The notes under the pieces were generated by a model that saw only the letters and a list, made by a program, of their open reading frames with translations, ran no database searches and had not been told where the DNA came from. A program made the translations under genes and the position numbers. A stretch of DNA of 64,000 nucleotides from Nakamurella alba (GTDB lineage: Bacteria > Actinomycetota > Actinomycetes > Mycobacteriales > Nakamurellaceae): the NCBI RefSeq assembly GCF_009707545.1, contig NZ_WLYK01000004.1, positions 1 to 64,000 of the forward strand, given 5' to 3'. Of this stretch, positions 7,482-61,082 are shown piece by piece (within the stretch, counting starts at the first letter, position 1; each line of letters begins with the position of its first letter).

Positions 7482-8627
7482 TCACCAGGGACTGCGCCGT
7501 GCGACCTCCCCCTGCCCCCGCTCGTAGTCCTCGTCCCGGTGGTGGGTCAGCACGCCGACCAGTTCGCCGTGCCGGCCGTAGCGGACGGTGAAACCGTCGC
7601 CGTCGTCGTCGATGTCGACCTCGTCGTAGCCGTCACCCCAGGCGGTGTACTTCAGCGTCCGCGATCCGATGGTCGACCAGAAGCCGGGCGGCTGCGCCCA
7701 TTCCGCGGTCAGTCCCGCGGCGGTGCGTCCGGCGACCTCCCCCATCGCGTCGGCGTCGCCCCAGTGCTCCACGGTCAACGACCGGCCCGCAGCGGTGTTC
7801 CTCGCGAACACCACGTCGCCGGCCGCCAGCACGGCCGGGTGGCTGGTGCGCATGTCGGCAGACACGCTGATCCGACCGTCGGACAAGGACAGGCCGGCCG
7901 CCGCGGCCAGCTCGGCCCGTGGGGTGACACCCGTGGCCAGCAACACCAGGTCGGCGGGCAACCTCTGACCTGCCGAGGTGAGGACGTGGTCGGGGGCGAT
8001 GGCGGAGACATCGTCCCCGACGCGCAGCCGGACGCCGTCCTGGTGCAACCACTCGGCGATGCGCCGGCTGACCCAGGCGCCCAGGCGTCGTTGCTGCGGG
8101 AGTACGTGACTCACCAGGGTGACCGCCACACCCCGGCCTGCCAGCGAGGCGGCTGCTTCGCATCCTACGAAACCGGACCCGACCACCACCGCGGTCGCGG
8201 CGCGCTCTGCGGCGTCGACCAGGTCGATCGCGTCGCGCCGGGAACGCAGGACGTGAGCGTGCCGGGCGCCGGGGATGTCCGGGCGCACCGGCGTGCTGCC
8301 GGTGGCCAGCACGCATGTGGCGAAGTCCATCGCACGGCCGTCGGCCAGCAGCACCGCGCGGCTGTCCGGTCGCAGTTCGGTGACCCGGCTCGAGAGCACC
8401 AGTTCGATGTCACGGTCCCGGTAGAACTGCGGGTCGTGCAGAACCGTGTCGACGACAGGGGTGTCGCCCCGCAGCACGTCCTTCGACAGCCGCGGACGTT
8501 CGTACGGCAGGTCCGGGTCCTCGGTGACCAGTCGGACCGGTCCGTCGCCCTGCGCATCCCGGTAGGCCCCTGCCGCGGCGACTGCGGCAGGGCCACTGCC
8601 GACGACCACCAGTCCTGCACCTGCCAT
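7482..8627 (-). CDS. FAD/NAD(P)-dependent ferredoxin reductase-like oxidoreductase
   Basis: 381 residues. The FAD-binding glycine motif is at the N-terminus (VVGSGPAAVAAAGAY), followed by the ERPRLSKD segment of ferredoxin/rubredoxin reductases. An NAD(P)-binding motif GSGFVGCEAA lies near residue 150, and the second FAD contact in AAGDV near residue 275. A C-terminal reductase domain ends the protein. It probably passes electrons from NAD(P)H to a small redox protein; no ferredoxin gene is adjacent. AGGGGAGAG before ATG 8627 decides the start. Convergent with the alcohol dehydrogenase, 10 bases away. Confidence 0.94.
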   Translation of the reverse strand: MAGAGLVVVGSGPAAVAAAGAYRDAQGDGPVRLVTEDPDLPYERPRLSKDVLRGDTPVVDTVLHDPQFYRDRDIELVLSSRVTELRPDSRAVLLADGRAMDFATCVLATGSTPVRPDIPGARHAHVLRSRRDAIDLVDAAERAATAVVVGSGFVGCEAAASLAGRGVAVTLVSHVLPQQRRLGAWVSRRIAEWLHQDGVRLRVGDDVSAIAPDHVLTSAGQRLPADLVLLATGVTPRAELAAAAGLSLSDGRISVSADMRTSHPAVLAAGDVVFARNTAAGRSLTVEHWGDADAMGEVAGRTAAGLTAEWAQPPGFWSTIGSRTLKYTAWGDGYDEVDIDDDGDGFTVRYGRHGELVGVLTHHRDEDYERGQGEVARRSPW

Positions 8628-8835
8628 GGGCTCTCCCCTGGTGAACTCCGCGGCGACGTGACGCTCGGGAGAACGGTTGTCAGGCCGACCGGCTGCCGGG
8701 CAGGAAGCTGACCGCCCATCGCGTCGTCTCCGGGCCTTGCCCATCCGGTCCCCCGGTCGGCGCCTCCGAAAACGCGACGGGTGTCGAGAAACCCCACCCG
8801 CCGTCACGGCGGGCGGGGACTCGCACTCCGCCGTG

Positions 8836-8867
8836 CTGACCACACCCGGGGAGGCCGTCAGTCCGAC
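8836..8867 (+). repeat. Hairpin motif shared with 40439-40472
   Basis: CTGAC and GTCAG arms enclose a loop with CACCCGGGGAG, and CCGAC follows. The same arrangement, with a slightly longer loop, stands at 40439-40472 just after the structured RNA candidate. Function unknown. Confidence 0.45.
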
Positions 8868-8897
8868 TCGCACATCCTACGTCGCGCCGCTGATGAG

Positions 8898-8973
8898 GCG
8901 GCCCCGCCGGCTGCTGGTGTGAACCGGCGGGACCTACGTCCATCCGCCCACCCCCGGGCGCAAGCGGGGCCGC
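8898..8973 (+). repeat. 77-bp inverted-repeat element, copy 1
   Basis: The ends are perfect 10-base inverted repeats (GCGGCCCCGC and GCGGGGCCGC). Inside, CCGCCGG and CCGGCGG form a second stem, followed by the conserved line GGGACCTACGTCCATCCGC. The same element is at 41694-41770 and, inverted, at 61179-61255, each upstream of an lsr2 gene; here no lsr2 gene is near. Confidence 0.7.
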
Positions 8974-9020
8974 ACCATTGTTCTGCCCGCACCACCCGGG
9001 GGCTCAAACCTGAGGCATCG

Positions 9021-9833
9021 TCAGACGCTCGCCGTCGCGACCGGTGGTGATGAAATGCCCATCACGCATCGTCGCCAGGTCGCGATCAGCACCACGGGGA
9101 CGAGCAGCAACGATGTCCGACCCATGAAGAGCGACACCGGGTCCGACTCCTCGAGCGCCGGGATCGCGTAGTAGCCGAACAGGACCAGCACCACCGTGAC
9201 GAGGACGGCGGCCCGGGCAACAGGATGTGCCTCGAACCCGAAGCGCACCACGGCTTTCGGGAGCACGGTGCGGAAGAGATCGACGATCGTCCACAGCACG
9301 AGCGCGCCGACCACGGCGTAGATCCACCACGGCGAGATGTCCCAGCCCTCGCGGAAATGCGTGACGTCGCCGTCGTCGGCGAAGGTGCGCAGCGGCACGT
9401 AGTCCCACAGGTTCGCCAGGCACAGGAACATGTACCAGAACAGGATGAACGAGACCCACGGGCGCGCTGCCATCCATCCCCTGGCGAACAGCCACCGCGT
9501 CACCAGGTACGGGACGGCGTTGCCGATCCCGGGCCCGGCGAAGGCGACCAGCGCGACCTGCCAGTACTTCCCGGCGGCGAGTGCCGCGTCGTAGTCGACG
9601 TTCTCGTCGATGTGCGCCAGTGCCACGATGTTCCACAGACCGGTCCCGCCCCAGTCGATGTCACCCGGGACCGGCTTGATGCCGACCAGCCATGCGGTGA
9701 TCGAGTGGCTGAACTCGTGCGGGAGGACCGCCACGTAGTGCGTCAGCACCAGGACCAACGGGATGGCGGCCACCATGGGCCACACCGAGCGGGCGGCGAA
9801 GCTGCTCGCATCGTGGCGAAGCGGGGTACTCAT
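9021..9833 (-). CDS. Multi-pass membrane protein with HExxH, M50-like metallopeptidase
   Basis: 270 residues with about six hydrophobic segments. The second half of the first segment contains HEFSH (VLPHEFSHSITAW), the zinc-binding HExxH of membrane-embedded metallopeptidases. A distal Asp/Asn ligand in NLWDYVPLR is a plausible third ligand. Such proteins cleave substrates within or near the membrane, or are inactive relatives. GAGGAG five bases before ATG 9833 supports this start over longer readings. No partner such as an anti-sigma factor is adjacent. Confidence 0.8.
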   Translation of the reverse strand: MSTPLRHDASSFAARSVWPMVAAIPLVLVLTHYVAVLPHEFSHSITAWLVGIKPVPGDIDWGGTGLWNIVALAHIDENVDYDAALAAGKYWQVALVAFAGPGIGNAVPYLVTRWLFARGWMAARPWVSFILFWYMFLCLANLWDYVPLRTFADDGDVTHFREGWDISPWWIYAVVGALVLWTIVDLFRTVLPKAVVRFGFEAHPVARAAVLVTVVLVLFGYYAIPALEESDPVSLFMGRTSLLLVPVVLIATWRRCVMGISSPPVATASV

Positions 9834-27500: not shown

Positions 27501-28442
27501 TCAGTTCCCCGGGCTGTCGGCGATGCGGATCTCCTGCTCGGCGGTGGCCTGGATCAGTGCCAGCAACTCGGGATCCAAGCCGGGCGAGAACTCTTCCTTT
27601 CGCTCGGGTGAGATCGACATCGGGAAGCCCTGCGGCATCACATCTGTGGTGAGTTCCGTGCCGTCGTTCGACGGGGACGCCCCGCGGTAGAGCTTGTCGG
27701 CCTCGGACAGGTTGTCCGCGCTGAAGGTGTACTGCACGCTCTGCAATCCGCGGTCGACGAGCTTCTTGACCTCCGGAAAGCGTTCGGCGTTGGTCTTCGG
27801 GATCGGCAGCACCTTGCCCCAGTCCACTCCCAGGCTCTCCAGCGCCTTGGCAAAAGCGTTCTCGTGGGCCTGGTCCCGCACGATGAGATAGGCGATCGTC
27901 GAGCGGGCGGTCTTGTTGTCGGTCATCTCGTAGATCCGGCACTTCTGCAGCCGCCCGGTCGACTCGAGCATCAGGTTGTACAGCAGGTCCAGCACCAGGT
28001 TGCCGCTGTTGTACACATAGGAACCGGACCACGGATTGCCGGCCGCGTCCACCGGCAGCGCCCCCTGCGCACCCACGAGGTAGTGGTGGATGTTGCTGTG
28101 GTCCAACGCGATCGACAGCGGCGTCGCACCCCGGGCGCCGGGCTTGTCCACCGGATCGTTCTTGCGGCCCTGGTAGGCCGGCGAGCCGTCCAGCAGCCGG
28201 GAGATCGTCGTTCCGATCAGCTCGACGTGACTGATCTCCTCGGTGCCGACCCCCTGCAGCAGATCCTTGTAGGGCTTGGACTTCACATCGCCGCGGAAGT
28301 TGATGCTCTGGAACAGGTACTGCATCATCGTCCGCATCTCGCCGAACTGCCCGCCCAACCCCTCCTGCAGGGCATTCGCGGCGGCGGGATCCGGTTCGTC
28401 GACGGCAATCTCGTTGATCAACAGCTCGGTGTGCAGATACAT
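27501..28442 (-). CDS. Manganese catalase (non-heme)
   Basis: 313 residues, the full family length. Di-manganese ligands are expected in HTELLINEIAVD, in LQGVGTEEISHVELIGT and in VRDQAHENAFAKALE, all present. The N-terminus MYLHTELL is typical. It breaks hydrogen peroxide to water and oxygen in the cytoplasm. It lies in a minus-strand group with a small membrane protein downstream and a small helical protein upstream, close to csbD, fitting a general stress regulon. Confidence 0.95.
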   Translation of the reverse strand: MYLHTELLINEIAVDEPDPAAANALQEGLGGQFGEMRTMMQYLFQSINFRGDVKSKPYKDLLQGVGTEEISHVELIGTTISRLLDGSPAYQGRKNDPVDKPGARGATPLSIALDHSNIHHYLVGAQGALPVDAAGNPWSGSYVYNSGNLVLDLLYNLMLESTGRLQKCRIYEMTDNKTARSTIAYLIVRDQAHENAFAKALESLGVDWGKVLPIPKTNAERFPEVKKLVDRGLQSVQYTFSADNLSEADKLYRGASPSNDGTELTTDVMPQGFPMSISPERKEEFSPGLDPELLALIQATAEQEIRIADSPGN

Positions 28443-28510
28443 CGGGTACTCGTTTCTTCTCGAGGGTGACGGGTCCCGCGGCAGCCGCACGGTCCGGGAC
28501 GCAGAGTCGG

Positions 28511-29043: not shown

Positions 29044-29229
29044 TCAGCGACCCATCGCGTCCTTCGCGGCGTCCTCGACCTTGTCTCCGGCCCGCTTCAC
29101 GTTCGCCGATGCCTGATCGGCCTGGCCTTCGGCCCGCAGATCGTCGTTGTTCGTGGCGCGGCCCGCTGCTTCCTTGACCTTGCCGCCGGCTTCCTCCGCC
29201 GCGTGCTTCACCTTGTCGCCCATGCTCAT
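29044..29229 (-). CDS. CsbD family stress protein, copy 1
   Basis: 61 residues, the standard CsbD length, with the GDKVKHAAEEAGGKVKEAAG and ADQASANVKRAGDKVEDAAK helices. CsbD proteins are abundant, disordered, general-stress proteins of unknown mechanism. GAAGGAGTATCGACC precedes ATG 29229. A close copy sits at 39853-40038, and the ~35 bases before both starts are almost the same (GACGGGGGTTCGATCCGAAG), so the control region was duplicated too. Confidence 0.92.
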   Translation of the reverse strand: MSMGDKVKHAAEEAGGKVKEAAGRATNNDDLRAEGQADQASANVKRAGDKVEDAAKDAMGR

Positions 29230-29739: not shown

Positions 29740-30036
29740 ATGGATCATGTCGATCGCGAGTCCGGCGTCGACCCGCAGCGGTCGCGCCGAGGGTTTCAGC
29801 GGGATGACACCAGATGGATGCAGCAACTGACAGCCGTTGCAGCCCACGTCGAGCGGACCGGCCGCCTGCCCTCGGCGAGCAGGAACGCCGATCCCCAGGA
29901 GCGTCCACTAGGGGTCTGGTTGACCAATCAGCGTCGGGACCACCTCATCGGTTCGATGCCCGTCGACCGGGTCGCCAGGCTTGATGCCCTGGTCCCGACC
30001 TGGGCCGGGAAGAGCGGGCCGCGCCGGGACCGCTGA
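29740..30036 (+). CDS. Stand-alone helicase-associated (HA) domain protein 1
   Basis: 98 residues that are one HA domain (Pfam helicase-associated type). Key positions are W in DDTRWMQQLTAVAAHV, GRLPSAS, QERPLGVWLTNQRR and the closing RLDALVPTW. In known proteins this domain follows a DEAD/DEAH helicase core as tandem repeats; here no helicase is attached. GAGG five bases before ATG 29740 sets the start. It belongs to a family scattered through the window (41406, 49743, 52447, 52893, 56276, 58108). Confidence 0.8.
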   Translation: MDHVDRESGVDPQRSRRGFQRDDTRWMQQLTAVAAHVERTGRLPSASRNADPQERPLGVWLTNQRRDHLIGSMPVDRVARLDALVPTWAGKSGPRRDR

Positions 30037-39852: not shown

Positions 39853-40038
39853 ATGAGCATGGGCGACAAGATCAAGCACGCGGCCGAGGAGGTCGGCGGC
39901 AAGGTCAAGGAGACCGCCGGCCGGGCGACGAACAACGAGGACCTGCAGGCCGAGGGTCAGGCCGACCAAGCCTCGGCCAACGTCAAGCAGGCCGGCGACA
40001 AGGTCGAGGACGCAGCCAAGGATGCTCTCGGCCGCTGA
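39853..40038 (+). CDS. CsbD family stress protein, copy 2
   Basis: 61 residues, close to the copy at 29044 (differences such as DKIKHAAEEVGG for DKVKHAAEEAGG). Ribosome site GAAGGAGCATCGACC before ATG 39853. The preceding GACGGGGGTTCGATCC is shared with copy 1, so promoter-proximal sequence moved with the gene. It lies inside the segment that separates the two halves of an IS256 transposase. Confidence 0.92.
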   Translation: MSMGDKIKHAAEEVGGKVKETAGRATNNEDLQAEGQADQASANVKQAGDKVEDAAKDALGR

Positions 40039-40942: not shown

Positions 40943-41235
40943 ATGAGGACCCGTCACTTCGCTCTGCATGTGGTGTCCATCCCCGATGCGGACGACGGTC
41001 TGTCGTGCGAGTTCCGCACCCTGCTCAAGGGGGCCCTATTCCTCGAGGGCTCGGGTCATATCAACGGGGAGTGCGGTGCTTGCGGGCACACCTTGATGCG
41101 GGGTATCACCGGTCTCCCCGGAATCGTGTTCGTGTGCCCCGGTACTCGAGCGGCAATGCGGTTCCTCCCCCGGGCGCGGAGACCACTCAAGCGGAGAGCT
41201 TGGCCCAACGGGCGCTGCAGTCCGCGCTCTGGTAA
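40943..41235 (+). pseudogene. Small zinc-ribbon protein, frameshifted copy
   Basis: From ATG 40943 (AGGAGGG seven bases upstream) the frame matches the intact gene at 56986: IPDADDG, FRTLLKGALFLEGSGHINGE, CGACGHTLMRG, GIVFVCP. After the second cysteine pair begins, one base change in frame at about 41141 sends the rest (SSGNAVPPPGAETTQAESLA) into another frame that stops at 41235. The second CxxC is thereby disrupted. Confidence 0.68.
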
Positions 41236-41405
41236 CTGTGCAGGCCGGGCACGGGGACCCGGTGGGTCAAGGCCGTAACAAGCGAGCGACAAGGCGGGAA
41301 CGTCAGGGTGAGGAGCATCGTCGCTTCAACCCGACAGGAGACCCGGCCGTCATGGCTATGCCCTACGCACGCTCCCCGCGGTGACCCCCTCCGTGCGGCC
41401 CGGGT

Positions 41406-41654
41406 TCAGATCTTCCGCCTACCCCTCCATGCCGGCATCGCGAGATCGAGTCGCTGAATGCGGTCGGGCGACAACGCCCCGCAGGAGTGCTCGCGCCGCT
41501 GATACCCCAACCACTGGGACAGAGAATTCTCGGCCGGATCGATGGACGGGCCGTGCCTTGGCATCCGACCAAACGTCCCTACGAACGCGACAAGACCCTC
41601 CAAGCGAGCGTCCCAGGCCGCATCGTCACGCTGGAAACCCCTTGTCACGGTCAC
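41406..41654 (-). CDS. Stand-alone HA domain protein 2
   Basis: 82 residues, one HA domain: GFQRDDAAWDARLEGLVAFV, GRMPRH, ENSLSQWLGYQRREH, and the end RLDLAMPAWRG. The first residues GFQRDD match protein 1 at 29740. GTG 41654 has no ribosome site but TATCCG lies near -10, so it may be leaderless. Its start and the lsr2 gene at 41868 are divergent, with the 77-bp element between. Confidence 0.78.
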   Translation of the reverse strand: MTVTRGFQRDDAAWDARLEGLVAFVGTFGRMPRHGPSIDPAENSLSQWLGYQRREHSCGALSPDRIQRLDLAMPAWRGRRKI

Positions 41655-41855: not shown

Positions 41856-41868
41856 TAGGGTTCCTGCG
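41856..41868 (+). promoter_or_regulatory. Leaderless promoter of lsr2
   Basis: TAGGGT ends six bases before GTG 41868, the position for a -10 box of a leaderless mRNA. There is no ribosome site. The same CCCTAGGGTTC precedes the lsr2 gene at 60729, and TAGAAT is at the same place before the broken copy at 49420. Confidence 0.65.
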
Positions 41869-42215
41869 TGGCTTCCATCACCTCCGTGACCATGACCGAC
41901 GACCTTGACGGCAGCAAGGCCGCCGAGACCGTCGCCTTCGCGCTCGACGGGGCGGACTACGAGATCGACCTGTCCAAGCGCAACGCCGCCGCCCTACGAA
42001 AGGCTCTCGCCGCCTTCATCGAGGCTGGCCGGCGTCAGCCGCGGACCGTGAAGTCTCGCCGCCCGGCCGACAAGCCCGGAGCAGCCGAGCGGGCAGCGCA
42101 CCGCGCACACCTCTCCAAGGTGCGCACCTGGGCGGCGGCAAACGAGATGGAAATCAGCGACCGCGGCCGACTCCCGGAGGCCGTGCTCGAGGCCTACGAC
42201 GCTGCTCAAGGCTGA
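41868..42215 (+). CDS. lsr2: Lsr2-type nucleoid-associated protein
   Basis: 115 residues. An N-terminal dimerisation half (TMTDDLDGSKAAETVAFALD, DYEIDLSKRNAAALRKALA) and a C-terminal DNA-binding half (LSKVRTWAAANEMEISDRG, LPEAVLEAY) match Lsr2. The AT-hook-like RGR core is here DRGRLPE. Lsr2 binds AT-rich, often foreign DNA and silences it. A second intact and a third broken copy lie in the window. Confidence 0.92.
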   Translation: MASITSVTMTDDLDGSKAAETVAFALDGADYEIDLSKRNAAALRKALAAFIEAGRRQPRTVKSRRPADKPGAAERAAHRAHLSKVRTWAAANEMEISDRGRLPEAVLEAYDAAQG

Positions 42216-48925: not shown

Positions 48926-49419
48926 GCACCATCGTCAAGGGAGAGGAGGCTATTACCACGCCCGCACTCACAGCCTGAACCCCTGAACATCAAGGATCCG
49001 AGTTACACTACTCCCGCGGTCTTGACCGTCGAGGGTCCTCATCCACGCCATGGGGCCGGTCCTTGGCGGCCGGGAACTGTGTGGAGCCAGCCCGGCAGCA
49101 TACTGTCAATCAATTCACGACGGCGGTTGGACGTCAGGTGGCCGCTGACATCTCGGCGTTGGCGAGCCAGCCAGATGCCTGGCTTTCGCTCTTCAAGTGG
49201 AGCGTTCAGCGAGCTGCGAGGGAAGTGGCCATGGCTGGCGCAAATGCCAGCGTCTCGTGCAGCTTGGTGAGCCAGCCCTGCTCGTGTGTGTACTCCATCT
49301 GTCCCCTGTCCGTCCGCGGCGTCTCATGTAGTAGCAGACGCCTTCGTGCAACGGATCACCGGGCTCGTCAGTCGTGGTGCGGGCCCGACGGTTCCAGCGG
49401 TTTAGAATTCCGGCGTAGC
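48926..49419. other. No clear gene
   Basis: About 490 bases after the IS256 fragment. No convincing coding frame and no repeat recognised. The last ~30 bases are the degenerate lsr2 promoter (TTTAGAATTCC). Confidence 0.45.
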
Positions 49420-49742: not shown

Positions 49743-50015
49743 TCAACCATTTGATCTGGGCGCTCGGTGTTGAAAGCTGTCGTACCAGATGGGCACGGCC
49801 GCATCGAGCCTCGCGACGCGGTTCCCTTTGAGAAGGCCGATGGAGTGGGCCCGGCGCTGGTTGTTGACCCAATAGCCCAGTGATCGCTCCTGCGAGCCAA
49901 CACCCTTGGCCATTGACGGCAAGTGCCCTGTTCGAGCAACGTGCTCGGCAACGGCCTCCAAGCGCCGACTCCATCGCGGGTCGTCGCCGCCGAGCGCCTG
50001 TTCTCCCTTGACCAA
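49743..50015 (-). CDS. Stand-alone HA domain protein 3
   Basis: 90 residues, one HA domain: DDPRWSRRLEAVAEHVARTG, HLPSMAKG, QERSLGYWVNNQRRAHSIG and RLDAAVPIWYD. Closest in pattern to protein 1 at 29740. The start is uncertain (TTG at 50015); no clear ribosome site. It is convergent with the broken lsr2 copy, 15 bases away. Confidence 0.68.
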   Translation of the reverse strand: MVKGEQALGGDDPRWSRRLEAVAEHVARTGHLPSMAKGVGSQERSLGYWVNNQRRAHSIGLLKGNRVARLDAAVPIWYDSFQHRAPRSNG

Positions 50016-51939: not shown

Positions 51940-52462
51940 CTAGGCGGGCGGCGAACGAGTGTCATGGAGGCTGCTAACCAGACTGTCAGCGAATTCACCA
52001 CGTGGTATTACGAGCCGCTTTGGCGATGCTGTCGGCATCGGCGTTCTCGTTGCGGCCCGCAGCTCCTCGTCGTGGATTGCACCGCACCGCTCGAGGGCGA
52101 GCAGCTCGCCAAGGATGTGCGGACGCTGAGATACGATTACTTCGATGGTGGTGTTCGAGATGTAGATCTGCATCCCGTCGAGAGCATCGCTAGGCGAGTT
52201 CGCGCTCGGGACGATCTCCTGGGCCGCGCGAAGGTCACCTTCTGTCAGATCTCGACAGCACCAACGTCAGGGGGTAGGTGCGGTTACCGTCGGCATGCGC
52301 ACGACGAATCTGGTCGGCGGTCGGAGTTACGACCTCCGCCGCACGGAGTCGTTCGGCGGCGCTTGTGAACCCCTTTGCGGAGACACAGGGCTTCCCCTTG
52401 GTCGCGTCGTGAACGGCCCGGGCGGCAGTGCCCAATTGAACGCCAACTACAGCGGACGCCAT
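51940..52462 (-). pseudogene. Unrecognised gene with one frameshift
   Basis: ATG 52462 lies inside the end of the HA gene 52447-52710. The first frame (SAAERLRAAEVVTPTADQIR, HADGNRTYPLTLVLS) stops at 52235. The sense continues in the next frame as GDLRAAQEIVPSANSPSDAL and QIYISNTTIEVIVSQRPHIL to 51940. A programmed shift is possible but simple decay is more likely. Family not recognised. Confidence 0.5.
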
Positions 52463-52710
52463 CCGGGCAGGAGTCGGTCGAGTTGACGCTTGCGGTGGTC
52501 GAGGAGTGCTCGTGTTCTGAGGTCCCGGCGTTGGGTGCCGAGCCATTGTCCCAGTTGACGTTCCTCGAACGGGGCGGGTGGTGCGCTGCGGGGCCAGCGA
52601 TCCTGTTTTGCTCGGAACGACGCAACGGCTTCCAGCCGTTGTTGCCAGTGTGCTTCTTGGACTTGGAAGCCCCAGGAGCCGCGGCCGGGTGGGCGTCGGT
52701 CATCGTCCAC
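52447..52710 (-). CDS. Stand-alone HA domain protein 4
   Basis: 87 residues, one HA domain: GFQVQEAHWQQRLEAVASFR, DRWPRSAPPAP, EERQLGQWLGTQRRDL and QLDRLLPGWRPL. GTG 52710 is preceded by GGAGATCGCC, a clear ribosome site. It follows the four-domain HA gene on the same strand, 182 bases away. Confidence 0.8.
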   Translation of the reverse strand: MDDDRRPPGRGSWGFQVQEAHWQQRLEAVASFRAKQDRWPRSAPPAPFEERQLGQWLGTQRRDLRTRALLDHRKRQLDRLLPGWRPL

Positions 52711-52892: not shown

Positions 52893-54071
52893 TCATGAGG
52901 AGGGACTGTTCATCGGTCGGCTGGTGTCAGAGCGCCCGGCCGGCAGAGGATGTCGTGCATGAGTGCCTTTCCAGCCCGGTAGCCTGTGATCCAGGAGTCG
53001 TCGTCGATCCTCACTCAGGCGACCGGAGCGGTTTTCGATGCGTTGGTGACTGAGCCAGTTTCCCAGTGATCGTTCGTCTTCCGGGACTGACATCAACCTG
53101 TTGGCGCGGGGTGGCCGGCCGGTTGCAGCCAGGTGGGCAATGACGGCGGCTAATCTTTCCAGCCATCTGTCATTGTCGATCTGGAATCCGGACGCGGACG
53201 CGGGCGATGCTCCGTGATCGGCGGTGGTCCAGGACGGTGGCGGGGGTACCTCGAAGTTGGGGATGACCGACCAGAACCTGTCCGCTGGTTGCAGCCAGTC
53301 GCTGATGGATTCGTTGAGCTGCGCGATCCGATTCGCGCGGAGCACGCCGATCCGGAAGTTCTTTCGTTGAGTCACCAGCCAGGTGGCAAGTCGCCGCTCA
53401 TCACGACCCGGGGCGTTGGTTCGCGGTGGCCGGTCCTGCCCTTCGATGAATGACTGCACGTTCGCAAGCATCTGGACCCAGCGCGCTTCCCGCCCCAGTA
53501 CTTGCCTTGGACGTCCTACAGGATTCCCGTTGGGGTCCGCCTTCGCGGGCAGAAGGACCTGGCTGCACCAATCTGGCCAAAGCCGGTCCAGTTGCGCTCG
53601 CCGATGCCGCGCCAGGGTGCCGTCAGCCAGGTAGCGGCGCTGGTTGCCCAGCCAGTAGCTAAGGCTGCGCTCGTGCAGAGGGGTGGTGGGTGTGCGGCGT
53701 GGTGGTCGGTCGTGTTGGTCGATGAACGCCCGTAGCTCGGCGAGTCGTGCTGACCAGAACTGCTCGTTGGGCACACCCCCGATGCTGTGGTCGACAGGGA
53801 CAGGCCCCGCAGATGCACCCTTCAGCGGCGGCCCGGTCCTGCCGCGGCGCCAACCGGGCAGTTGTTCGTCGAGTTGCTGTTGCCGGTGCCGATCGATCGG
53901 CGGGTTGGTGCGCCGCTGGTTGCCCAGCCACTGTCCGAGCCGCCGTTCTGCGGGTGTGGTCTGCGGGGACTGGTGCGGCCAGCGATGCTCGGCCGCGACG
54001 AACGTCACCAGCAACCGCAGCTGCACCTGCCAGCGCTGATCATCCGCAACGAAGCCCCGCGAACCTGTCAT
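52893..54071 (-). CDS. Protein made of four tandem HA domains
   Basis: 392 residues with four HA domains and no helicase core. Domain 1 (~8-75): DDQRWQVQLRLL, RRLGQWLGNQRR, LDEQLPGWRR. Domain 2 (~105-170): EQFWSARLAELRAFIDQ, ERSLSYWLGNQRR, LDRLWPDW. Domain 3 (~195-265): EARWVQMLANVQSFIEG, ERRLATWLVTQRK, ISDWLQ. Domain 4 (~295-365): NDRWLERLAAVIAHLAATG, ERSLGNWLSHQR, LDHRLPGWKG. Linkers are Pro/Ala-rich. The frame is fully open, so it is probably functional. The start overlaps the end of a GAF fragment. Confidence 0.85.
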   Translation of the reverse strand: MTGSRGFVADDQRWQVQLRLLVTFVAAEHRWPHQSPQTTPAERRLGQWLGNQRRTNPPIDRHRQQQLDEQLPGWRRGRTGPPLKGASAGPVPVDHSIGGVPNEQFWSARLAELRAFIDQHDRPPRRTPTTPLHERSLSYWLGNQRRYLADGTLARHRRAQLDRLWPDWCSQVLLPAKADPNGNPVGRPRQVLGREARWVQMLANVQSFIEGQDRPPRTNAPGRDERRLATWLVTQRKNFRIGVLRANRIAQLNESISDWLQPADRFWSVIPNFEVPPPPSWTTADHGASPASASGFQIDNDRWLERLAAVIAHLAATGRPPRANRLMSVPEDERSLGNWLSHQRIENRSGRLSEDRRRLLDHRLPGWKGTHARHPLPAGRSDTSRPMNSPSS

Positions 54072-54565
54072 CCTGCTAAGCCTGCCACCTTCGAGTCCCG
54101 GCTGTAGGACCTTGACCCACTTCCGTGGACACCTGTGCTGAGGCGATGATCGTCTCGGAGCAACACAAAGGTGCCGTAGAGGTGCCCTCCTGCCCTGAGC
54201 GGTGCGGCCAGGTGGGCGCCGATACCCATCCGGCGGGTCGTCTCCAGAGCCGACGTGATTGGGTTCGTCTTGGCGTCGGGGATGACCGCTGGGAGGTCAC
54301 CCGAGACGACACGCACGCGATAAGGGCCAGCCAGGGCGGGGGAGAAGCCGGGCGTGACGAGTTGGCCTTTGAGCTCGCCGCTGACTGTCTCGACGACTTG
54401 TCGGCCCTGATCGAACCGGGAGATCCAGGCCAGATCCATGCCAAAGCGTTTCCGCACCAGGTGCAGCAGCTGGCCCGCCATCTGGTCGTCGGTGATCTCG
54501 GGTGCCGGCTCCGCCCACGGATCCAGGGTGTCCATCGATACCTGCCCCGACTTGCGTGCGGGCAT
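54068..54565 (-). CDS. Truncated GAF-domain protein
   Basis: 165 residues. The GAF portion reads LLHLVRKRFGMDLAWISRFD, LKGQLVTPGFSPALAG and RRMGIGAHLAAPLRAGGHLY. After DDHRLSTGV the sequence no longer fits and ends in a Ser/Arg-rich tail, so downstream domains (usually EAL) are lost. Its TGA overlaps the ATG of the four-HA gene. A pseudogene is quite possible. Confidence 0.5.
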   Translation of the reverse strand: MPARKSGQVSMDTLDPWAEPAPEITDDQMAGQLLHLVRKRFGMDLAWISRFDQGRQVVETVSGELKGQLVTPGFSPALAGPYRVRVVSGDLPAVIPDAKTNPITSALETTRRMGIGAHLAAPLRAGGHLYGTFVLLRDDHRLSTGVHGSGSRSYSRDSKVAGLAG

Positions 54566-54691
54566 CAGCCCACACTCGGCGCCCTTCCTTCGACAGCTGC
54601 ATCGGCGCAACCGTTGCAGCATTTGGGTGATTGTTGCTTACGAGTAATTGCGCCGCTACTGCCTGTGAGAAGTTCCTCGGAGCCGGCGCAG

Positions 54692-56275: not shown

Positions 56276-56578
56276 ATGACCGCCATCACTGACCCATCAC
56301 TCGTCACCGAGCCCGTCGGACGAAGTAACGGCTTCCAGCTCGATCAGGCCCGATGGCTGCGGCAGCTCGCCGCCACGAAGGAGTTCCGCGAGGAGTCCGG
56401 CCGGCTTCCTCGCCGTTCAACCGACGAACACGAACGTCGCCTGGCCTTGTGGCTCGCCACACAGCGCCGCGAATTCGCGGCGACGGCGCTGTCCGAGATC
56501 CGGGTCGCCCATTTAGACTCTGAACTGCCTGGATGGAACTCCGCCCACCTGTCTCGTCGGCGGGAAGCCAGCCGATGA
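56276..56578 (+). CDS. Stand-alone HA domain protein 5
   Basis: 100 residues, one HA domain after a 20-residue lead: GFQLDQARWLRQLAATKEFR, GRLPRRSTDEHERRLALWLA, TQRREFAATALSE and HLDSELPGWN. The TGA overlaps the ATG of the next gene (ATGA), so the pair is cotranslated. This is the only HA gene with a coupled partner. Confidence 0.8.
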   Translation: MTAITDPSLVTEPVGRSNGFQLDQARWLRQLAATKEFREESGRLPRRSTDEHERRLALWLATQRREFAATALSEIRVAHLDSELPGWNSAHLSRRREASR

Positions 56579-56985: not shown

Positions 56986-57255
56986 TCAGGACGCGGCGTC
57001 GAGTTCCTCTGCGCGAACCGCTGAAGTGATGTTGCCGCAGTGACAGCTCGGGCAGATGAAGACCACCCCGGAAACGCCGGCGATGCTGCGCATCCCGCGC
57101 ATCAGAGTCGTGCCGCAACGGCCACAGTCAGCGTCGAGGTGGCCCCGACCTTCGAGGTAGAGGTTGCCCAGCAGTGGCGTGCGGAAGACGCAGAATCGTT
57201 CGTCGTCCGCACCGGGAATCGCAGCGACGGTGAGTCGAACGTGTCTTCTCCTCAT
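56986..57255 (-). CDS. Small zinc-ribbon protein, intact copy
   Basis: 89 residues. IPGADDERFCVFRTPLLGNL, YLEGRGHLDADCGRCGTTLM and VFICPSCHCGN provide two CxxC pairs for one zinc. Family not recognised beyond the zinc ribbon. A frameshifted relative is at 40943. Both lie about 510-520 bases downstream of a copy of the structured RNA candidate on the same strand. Confidence 0.72.
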   Translation of the reverse strand: MRRRHVRLTVAAIPGADDERFCVFRTPLLGNLYLEGRGHLDADCGRCGTTLMRGMRSIAGVSGVVFICPSCHCGNITSAVRAEELDAAS

Positions 57256-58107: not shown

Positions 58108-58356
58108 ATGGAGCACGGATTCCGCCCCGACGACGAGACGTGGACCGCCCACCTCGAACACCTCGCGCATCACCTACGGGTACGCGGCTTGCTCCCATCC
58201 ACCGCCGTCGGCACGGACGTCGTCGAGCGTCGTCTGGCCTATTGGCTAATCACACAACGACGTGAAGAACGGATGCGGACCCTGCTCCCGCACCGGCGGG
58301 AGCAACTCGACCAAGCCGTGCCCGGCTGGCGCACACACCGCCCGATGTGGGCGTGA
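58108..58356 (+). CDS. Stand-alone HA domain protein 6
   Basis: 82 residues, one HA domain: GFRPDDETWTAHLEHLAHHL, RGLLPST, VERRLAYWLITQRREERM and LDQAVPGWRTH. It begins 38 bases from the 5' end of RNA candidate copy B, divergently. No clear ribosome site before ATG 58108. Confidence 0.76.
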   Translation: MEHGFRPDDETWTAHLEHLAHHLRVRGLLPSTAVGTDVVERRLAYWLITQRREERMRTLLPHRREQLDQAVPGWRTHRPMWA

Positions 58357-60728: not shown

Positions 60729-61082
60729 TCACGAGTCTGCCGCCTCGTAGGCATCGAACACAGCCTGCGGAATCCGGCCGCGGTCGCTGACACCCATCTC
60801 GTTTGCGGCTGCCCAGGTGCGGACCTTGGACAGGTAGGCACGGTGTTCGGCACGCTCGCGAGCTGTTTGGTCGGCCACGGCACGGATGGGCCGGGACTTC
60901 ACGGTCCGCGGCAGCCTACGGCCGGCGGCGAGGTAGGAAGCGAGCGCCTTCCGCAGCGCGGCTGCGTTGCGCTTCGAGAGATCGATCTCGTAGACCGCGC
61001 CGTCGAGGGCGAACTCGACGGTCTCGGCCGCCTTGCTGCCGTCGAGGTCGTCGGTCATGGTCACGGACATGATGGAAGCCAC
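60729..61082 (-). CDS. lsr2: Lsr2-type nucleoid-associated protein, second intact copy
   Basis: 117 residues, close to the copy at 41868 (IMSVTMTDDLDGSKAAETVE; VYEIDLSKRNAAALRKALAS; LSKVRTWAAANEMGVSDRGR). The linker between the halves differs most. GTG 61082 has no ribosome site but TAGGGT six bases before it, giving a leaderless start. The 77-bp element lies ~97 bases upstream, as at the other copy. It should bind AT-rich DNA and silence foreign genes. Confidence 0.92.
   Translation of the reverse strand: MASIMSVTMTDDLDGSKAAETVEFALDGAVYEIDLSKRNAAALRKALASYLAAGRRLPRTVKSRPIRAVADQTARERAEHRAYLSKVRTWAAANEMGVSDRGRIPQAVFDAYEAADS

Follow-up and report, generated by a model that had tools for sequence, protein, structure and literature searches.

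A helicase-free protein of four HA domains within an expanded HA gene family of Nakamurella alba

The four-HA gene and its surroundings upstream

The window, that is, the whole stretch of DNA analysed here, comprises the first 64,000 nucleotides of contig NZ_WLYK01000004.1 (C4) in the assembly GCF_009707545.1 of Nakamurella alba. On its minus strand, a gene for a protein of 392 aa runs from an ATG at 54071 to a stop at 52893 and is open over all of its 1,179 bases; frame 1 of the plus strand is interrupted by stops over the same interval. Pfam matched four stretches of the protein to PF03457 (HA, helicase associated domain) with an E-value of 3.5e-28 and 98.1 bits for the whole protein, and the polypeptide contains no helicase core. 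An earlier note, made from the letters and their open reading frames, had described a fully open gene of 392 residues with four HA domains and no helicase; our analysis bears out both points and adds the strand. In the whole-genome scan the domains scored 28-36 bits each (curated cut-off, 28.4 bits), and domain 1 by itself reached 27.9 bits, so that it stands above the cut-off only together with its neighbouring domains. All four domains are intact on the minus strand: domain 1 (residues 11-75, 53847-54041), domain 2 (residues 103-168, 53568-53765), domain 3 (residues 195-260, 53292-53489) and domain 4 (residues 300-368, 52968-53174). Together they account for 68% of the residues. Between them, the linkers of 27, 26 and 39 aa hold 17% proline and 10% alanine, so their earlier description as Pro/Ala-rich holds for proline and not really for alanine. 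Only 10 residues precede domain 1, and Pfam found no helix-turn-helix (HTH) match in the protein. Searches with PADLOC, NCBIfam and PHROGs gave no match for it.

The protein has a pI of 11.5 and a net charge of +21, with about 10 arginines per 61 residues in its HA domains. The high arginine content is partly an effect of the G+C-rich composition, which weakens the argument from charge, and, among the single HA domains, several are neutral or slightly acidic. For the fold, a sequence-profile comparison matched 2KTA, the solved HA domain of a putative helicase, with an E-value of 5e-9. The HA domain modelled on ten window domains gave a confident three-helix bundle, and the model of domain 4 is likewise a three-helix bundle (pLDDT 88); the full-length model, with a pLDDT of 37, was too poor for use. 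A Foldseek search with the HA domain fold returned no significant structural match and therefore no DNA-bound template.

Since HA domains usually stand behind a helicase core, the gene might be a cut-off tail, left behind when an HA-bearing helicase lost its core. The earlier note had named a frameshifted core just upstream as the finding that would speak for such a tail; we looked for one and it is absent. The upstream ORF (54068-54622, minus strand) encodes a GAF domain and no helicase; its stop and the start codon of the four-HA gene overlap in ATGA. With the cores of 16 HA helicases from other genomes as queries, tblastn gave chance-level matches only on the contigs that carry HA genes. 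ResIII was found at 11 places in the whole genome, none of them on C4, C14, C16, C21, C22, C8 or C18, and the place on C5 lies about 214 kb away from the HA gene of that contig. From these Pfam, tblastn and ResIII searches we rejected a helicase remnant upstream. DEAD/DEAH-type helicases with C-terminal HA repeats do carry PF03457 in tandem, as the window protein does, but they have the helicase core, their HA domains form a group in the tree separate from those of the window type (SH-aLRT 94), and these domains stand about 10 aa apart, as against linkers of 26-39 aa here. Taken together, we consider descent from a truncated helicase very improbable.

HA and zinc-ribbon-like genes across the genome

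A scan of the genome (6.05 Mb in 29 contigs) with PF03457 gave 34 HA matches, which cluster on C4 (28-66 kb), C14, C16, C21 and C22 and occur singly on C5, C8 and C18. None of 16 congeners has any HA domain. The majority of the HA genes are single-domain; a GF(Q/R)xDD leader stands ahead of the domain, which closes with LPGW. Many of these genes surround the four-HA gene, as the earlier note had said. One lies just downstream of it (52447-52710, minus strand), and others are found at 29740-30036 (plus), 41406-41648 (minus), 49743-50015 (minus), 56276-56578 (plus) and 58108-58356 (plus); a decayed HA remnant occupies 49102-49269 (minus). The contigs rich in HA genes are a mosaic of segmental duplications with about 65-95% DNA identity, interspersed with transposase pieces, and the about 30 HA genes expanded in this genome via such duplication. 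The mosaic extends over 28000-64000 of the window, C14, the start of C16, C21 and C22; the transposase pieces are of the IS256 type (Mutator family), and the assembly breaks here into short contigs.

A second family accompanies the HA genes. A small CxxC...CPxC protein, which we call zinc-ribbon-like because of this motif, is encoded 12 times in the genome and was found neither in 40 relatives nor in a sample of 316 other genomes of the class. Two copies lie in the window, at 40943-41236 (plus) and 56986-57255 (minus), convergent with the single-domain HA genes at 41406 and 56276, respectively, and the others on C5, C14, C21, C22, C1 and C9. Five of the 12 stand tail-to-tail with an HA gene at a distance of 95-468 bases; one of these is on C5, away from the contigs rich in HA genes. 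Because segmental duplication made some of the pairs copies of one another, the five pairings do not count as separate events. What is most unusual about the locus is the expansion of HA genes peculiar to this genome, together with the recurrent tail-to-tail arrangement of HA genes and orphan zinc-ribbon genes. One could go further and suppose that the two families (12 copies and 34 HA domains) form a co-expanded, genome-specific two-component set with an undescribed DNA-organising or element-silencing function, in which the four-HA protein would be the fused, multivalent member; we regard this as a long shot.

Origin of the repeats and selection on the copies

C22 carries, at 8053-9206, a paralogue of the four-HA gene that reaches past domain 3 into the beginning of domain 4. 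This copy has a frameshift in domain 1 and an in-frame stop, and its end is lost within domain 4. The gene already had four domains before the C4/C22 duplication, and the frameshift in the C22 sister copy implies that the genome can do without the array, at least where two are present. The two copies are alike in DNA from about 35 bases ahead of the ATG, and different genes precede them. A scan allowing up to 12 mismatches found no other occurrence of the 38 bases that lead up to the ATG, and on this ground we rejected a shared 5' cassette motif; the C22 counterpart of this stretch has a one-base gap and is visible by alignment only.

The four domains are no more alike to each other than to the other domains of the family: mean identity is 38% among the four, 38% between them and the single-domain genes, and 39% among the single-domain genes. 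We ran the domain phylogeny that had been proposed as a check on the origin of the array, using 61 columns. Domain 2 (72% identical to its C22 counterpart) pairs with that counterpart with strong support (99/92), and domain 3, whose nearest relative is again its C22 counterpart (52%), does so in the wider tree (SH-aLRT 95) and not in the own-genome tree. Domains 1 and 4 are placed nearest to single-domain genes, without strong support, and domain 4 keeps ahead of it the GFQxD leader typical of those genes. As the four repeats are not each other's closest relatives and do not group, we rejected a recent tandem duplication inside the gene. In AU tests, a tree holding the four window domains together was rejected (p 0.0075), a result that partly reflects the C22 pairing, and a tree holding them together with their C22 counterparts was not (p 0.095). 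The idea that the gene was built from the surrounding single-domain genes is therefore plausible, with the placement of domains 1 and 4 and the equal identities in its favour, but an older tandem origin would still fit.

Between the C4 and C22 copies, differences at codon positions 1, 2 and 3 number 20, 21 and 54 (domains 1-2, 124 codons), and pN/pS lies within 0.42-0.64 (95% interval by bootstrap, 299 codons). Among the 18 closest pairs of domains Ka/Ks is 0.12-0.39 where Ks can be estimated, Ks being saturated in three; the single-domain gene at 49743-50015 has about 0.12 against its C22 paralogue and that at 58108-58356 about 0.18 against its C21 paralogue. The third-position bias and the low Ka/Ks imply selection at the protein level on both the arrays and the single genes and, as judged from these codon comparisons, establish purifying selection on the duplicated copies until at least recently. 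These values count against the reading of the four-HA gene as a relic without present function, a product of segmental duplication in a decaying, IS-rich region that is intact by chance. The duplicated surroundings with their transposase pieces, the broken C22 copy, the HA remnants nearby and the absence of the family from the congeners would all suit a relic; the 1,179 open bases with four intact domains do not, and overall we find this explanation rather doubtful.

Relatives elsewhere and the proposed role

Helicase-free proteins of Micrococcales stand close to this HA subtype. In Micrococcaceae, on chromosomes and plasmids, such proteins occur with an HTH and two HA domains, with four HA domains or with eight, and are annotated as 'helicase associated domain-containing protein'. 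WP_139187296.1 (298 aa, from plasmid pACHL01 of Pseudarthrobacter chlorophenolicus) and WP_191082315.1 resemble the window protein in consisting of four HA domains only, of the same subtype and without a helicase core, but proteins of this type share only 25-29% identity with it and have short linkers. Their genes also differ from the window gene in lying in a conserved block of DNA-metabolism genes and in being followed by a second HA ORF. On two Pseudarthrobacter plasmids the block holds a DNA helicase, a DNA methyltransferase and a DEAD/DEAH helicase; there, the four-HA gene overlaps the second ORF, which has two HA domains and is annotated only as hypothetical (L113, 6725-8094; L114, 7028-8277). 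The HTH-HA-HA proteins of Micrococcaceae (about 146-300 aa) are helicase-free and of the same HA subtype, but have an N-terminal HTH-like segment and two HA domains where the window protein has no such segment and four; the HTH assignment is weak, as the best Pfam match has an E-value of 3e-4, under the curated cut-off. The eight-HA chain (L116, genome G922) is an 845-residue frame in which no helicase domain was found. With a single-domain neighbour as the query, seven plasmid records had matches annotated as HA proteins, and the four that we opened are 146-208 aa long. Scans of the contigs of named genomes yielded no orthologue of the four-HA gene, phage records gave no match, and a viral contig gave a single weak one (L143). 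Our literature searches turned up no publication on bacterial HA proteins, those without a helicase included. With two or more HA domains and no core, the window protein fits the helicase-free multi-HA proteins of actinobacteria. It is an unusual member of this known, unstudied kind rather than a novel type of system, because such proteins, of which the earlier note was unaware, are already recorded in other soil actinobacteria.

The HTH segments and DNA-metabolism neighbours of the relatives, together with the basic charge, make multivalent nucleic-acid binding the most likely role; the earlier note had likewise supposed that the array would offer a multivalent binding surface. We propose that the strongly basic protein, in which flexible, proline-rich linkers connect four HA domains of three helices each, would bind nucleic acid (probably DNA), with each domain contributing a weak contact and all four jointly a firm one, and that it may serve as an accessory or architectural protein without enzymatic activity. 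A multivalent, arginine-rich, helicase-free nucleic-acid-binding protein is our best reading, and we hold it to be evenly balanced between right and wrong. The HA domains might instead be protein-protein adaptors, so that the array would recruit HA proteins of one domain, a helicase from another part of the genome or the zinc-ribbon partner and have no nucleic-acid binding of its own. The genome does encode helicases elsewhere, HA genes do lie tail-to-tail with the zinc-ribbon family at five places, and the nucleic-acid-binding role of the HA domain rests on annotation lore and not on data. The strongly basic array and the HTH segments that accompany HA domains in related proteins, weak as those matches are, argue against adaptors, and we think this alternative unlikely. 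Although helicases gave the HA domains their name, what these domains bind seems never to have been tested. For nucleic-acid binding by the array, the about 25 one-domain proteins and the natural four-domain one offer a ready series in which one and four domains can be compared apart from any helicase, in a gene family that is absent from all sampled congeners and radiated within one genome.

An Rfam search of the region gave no match. At least three full Lsr2-like genes, as well as related fragments, lie in the HA-rich duplicated regions, at 41868-42215 (plus, PF11774) and 60729-61082 (minus, PF11774) in the window and at about 12186-12515 of C22. Near a manganese catalase gene (27501-28490) lies a CsbD-like stress gene (29044-29229, minus, PF05532), and a second copy, recognised by its likeness to the first, is found at 39853-40038 (plus).
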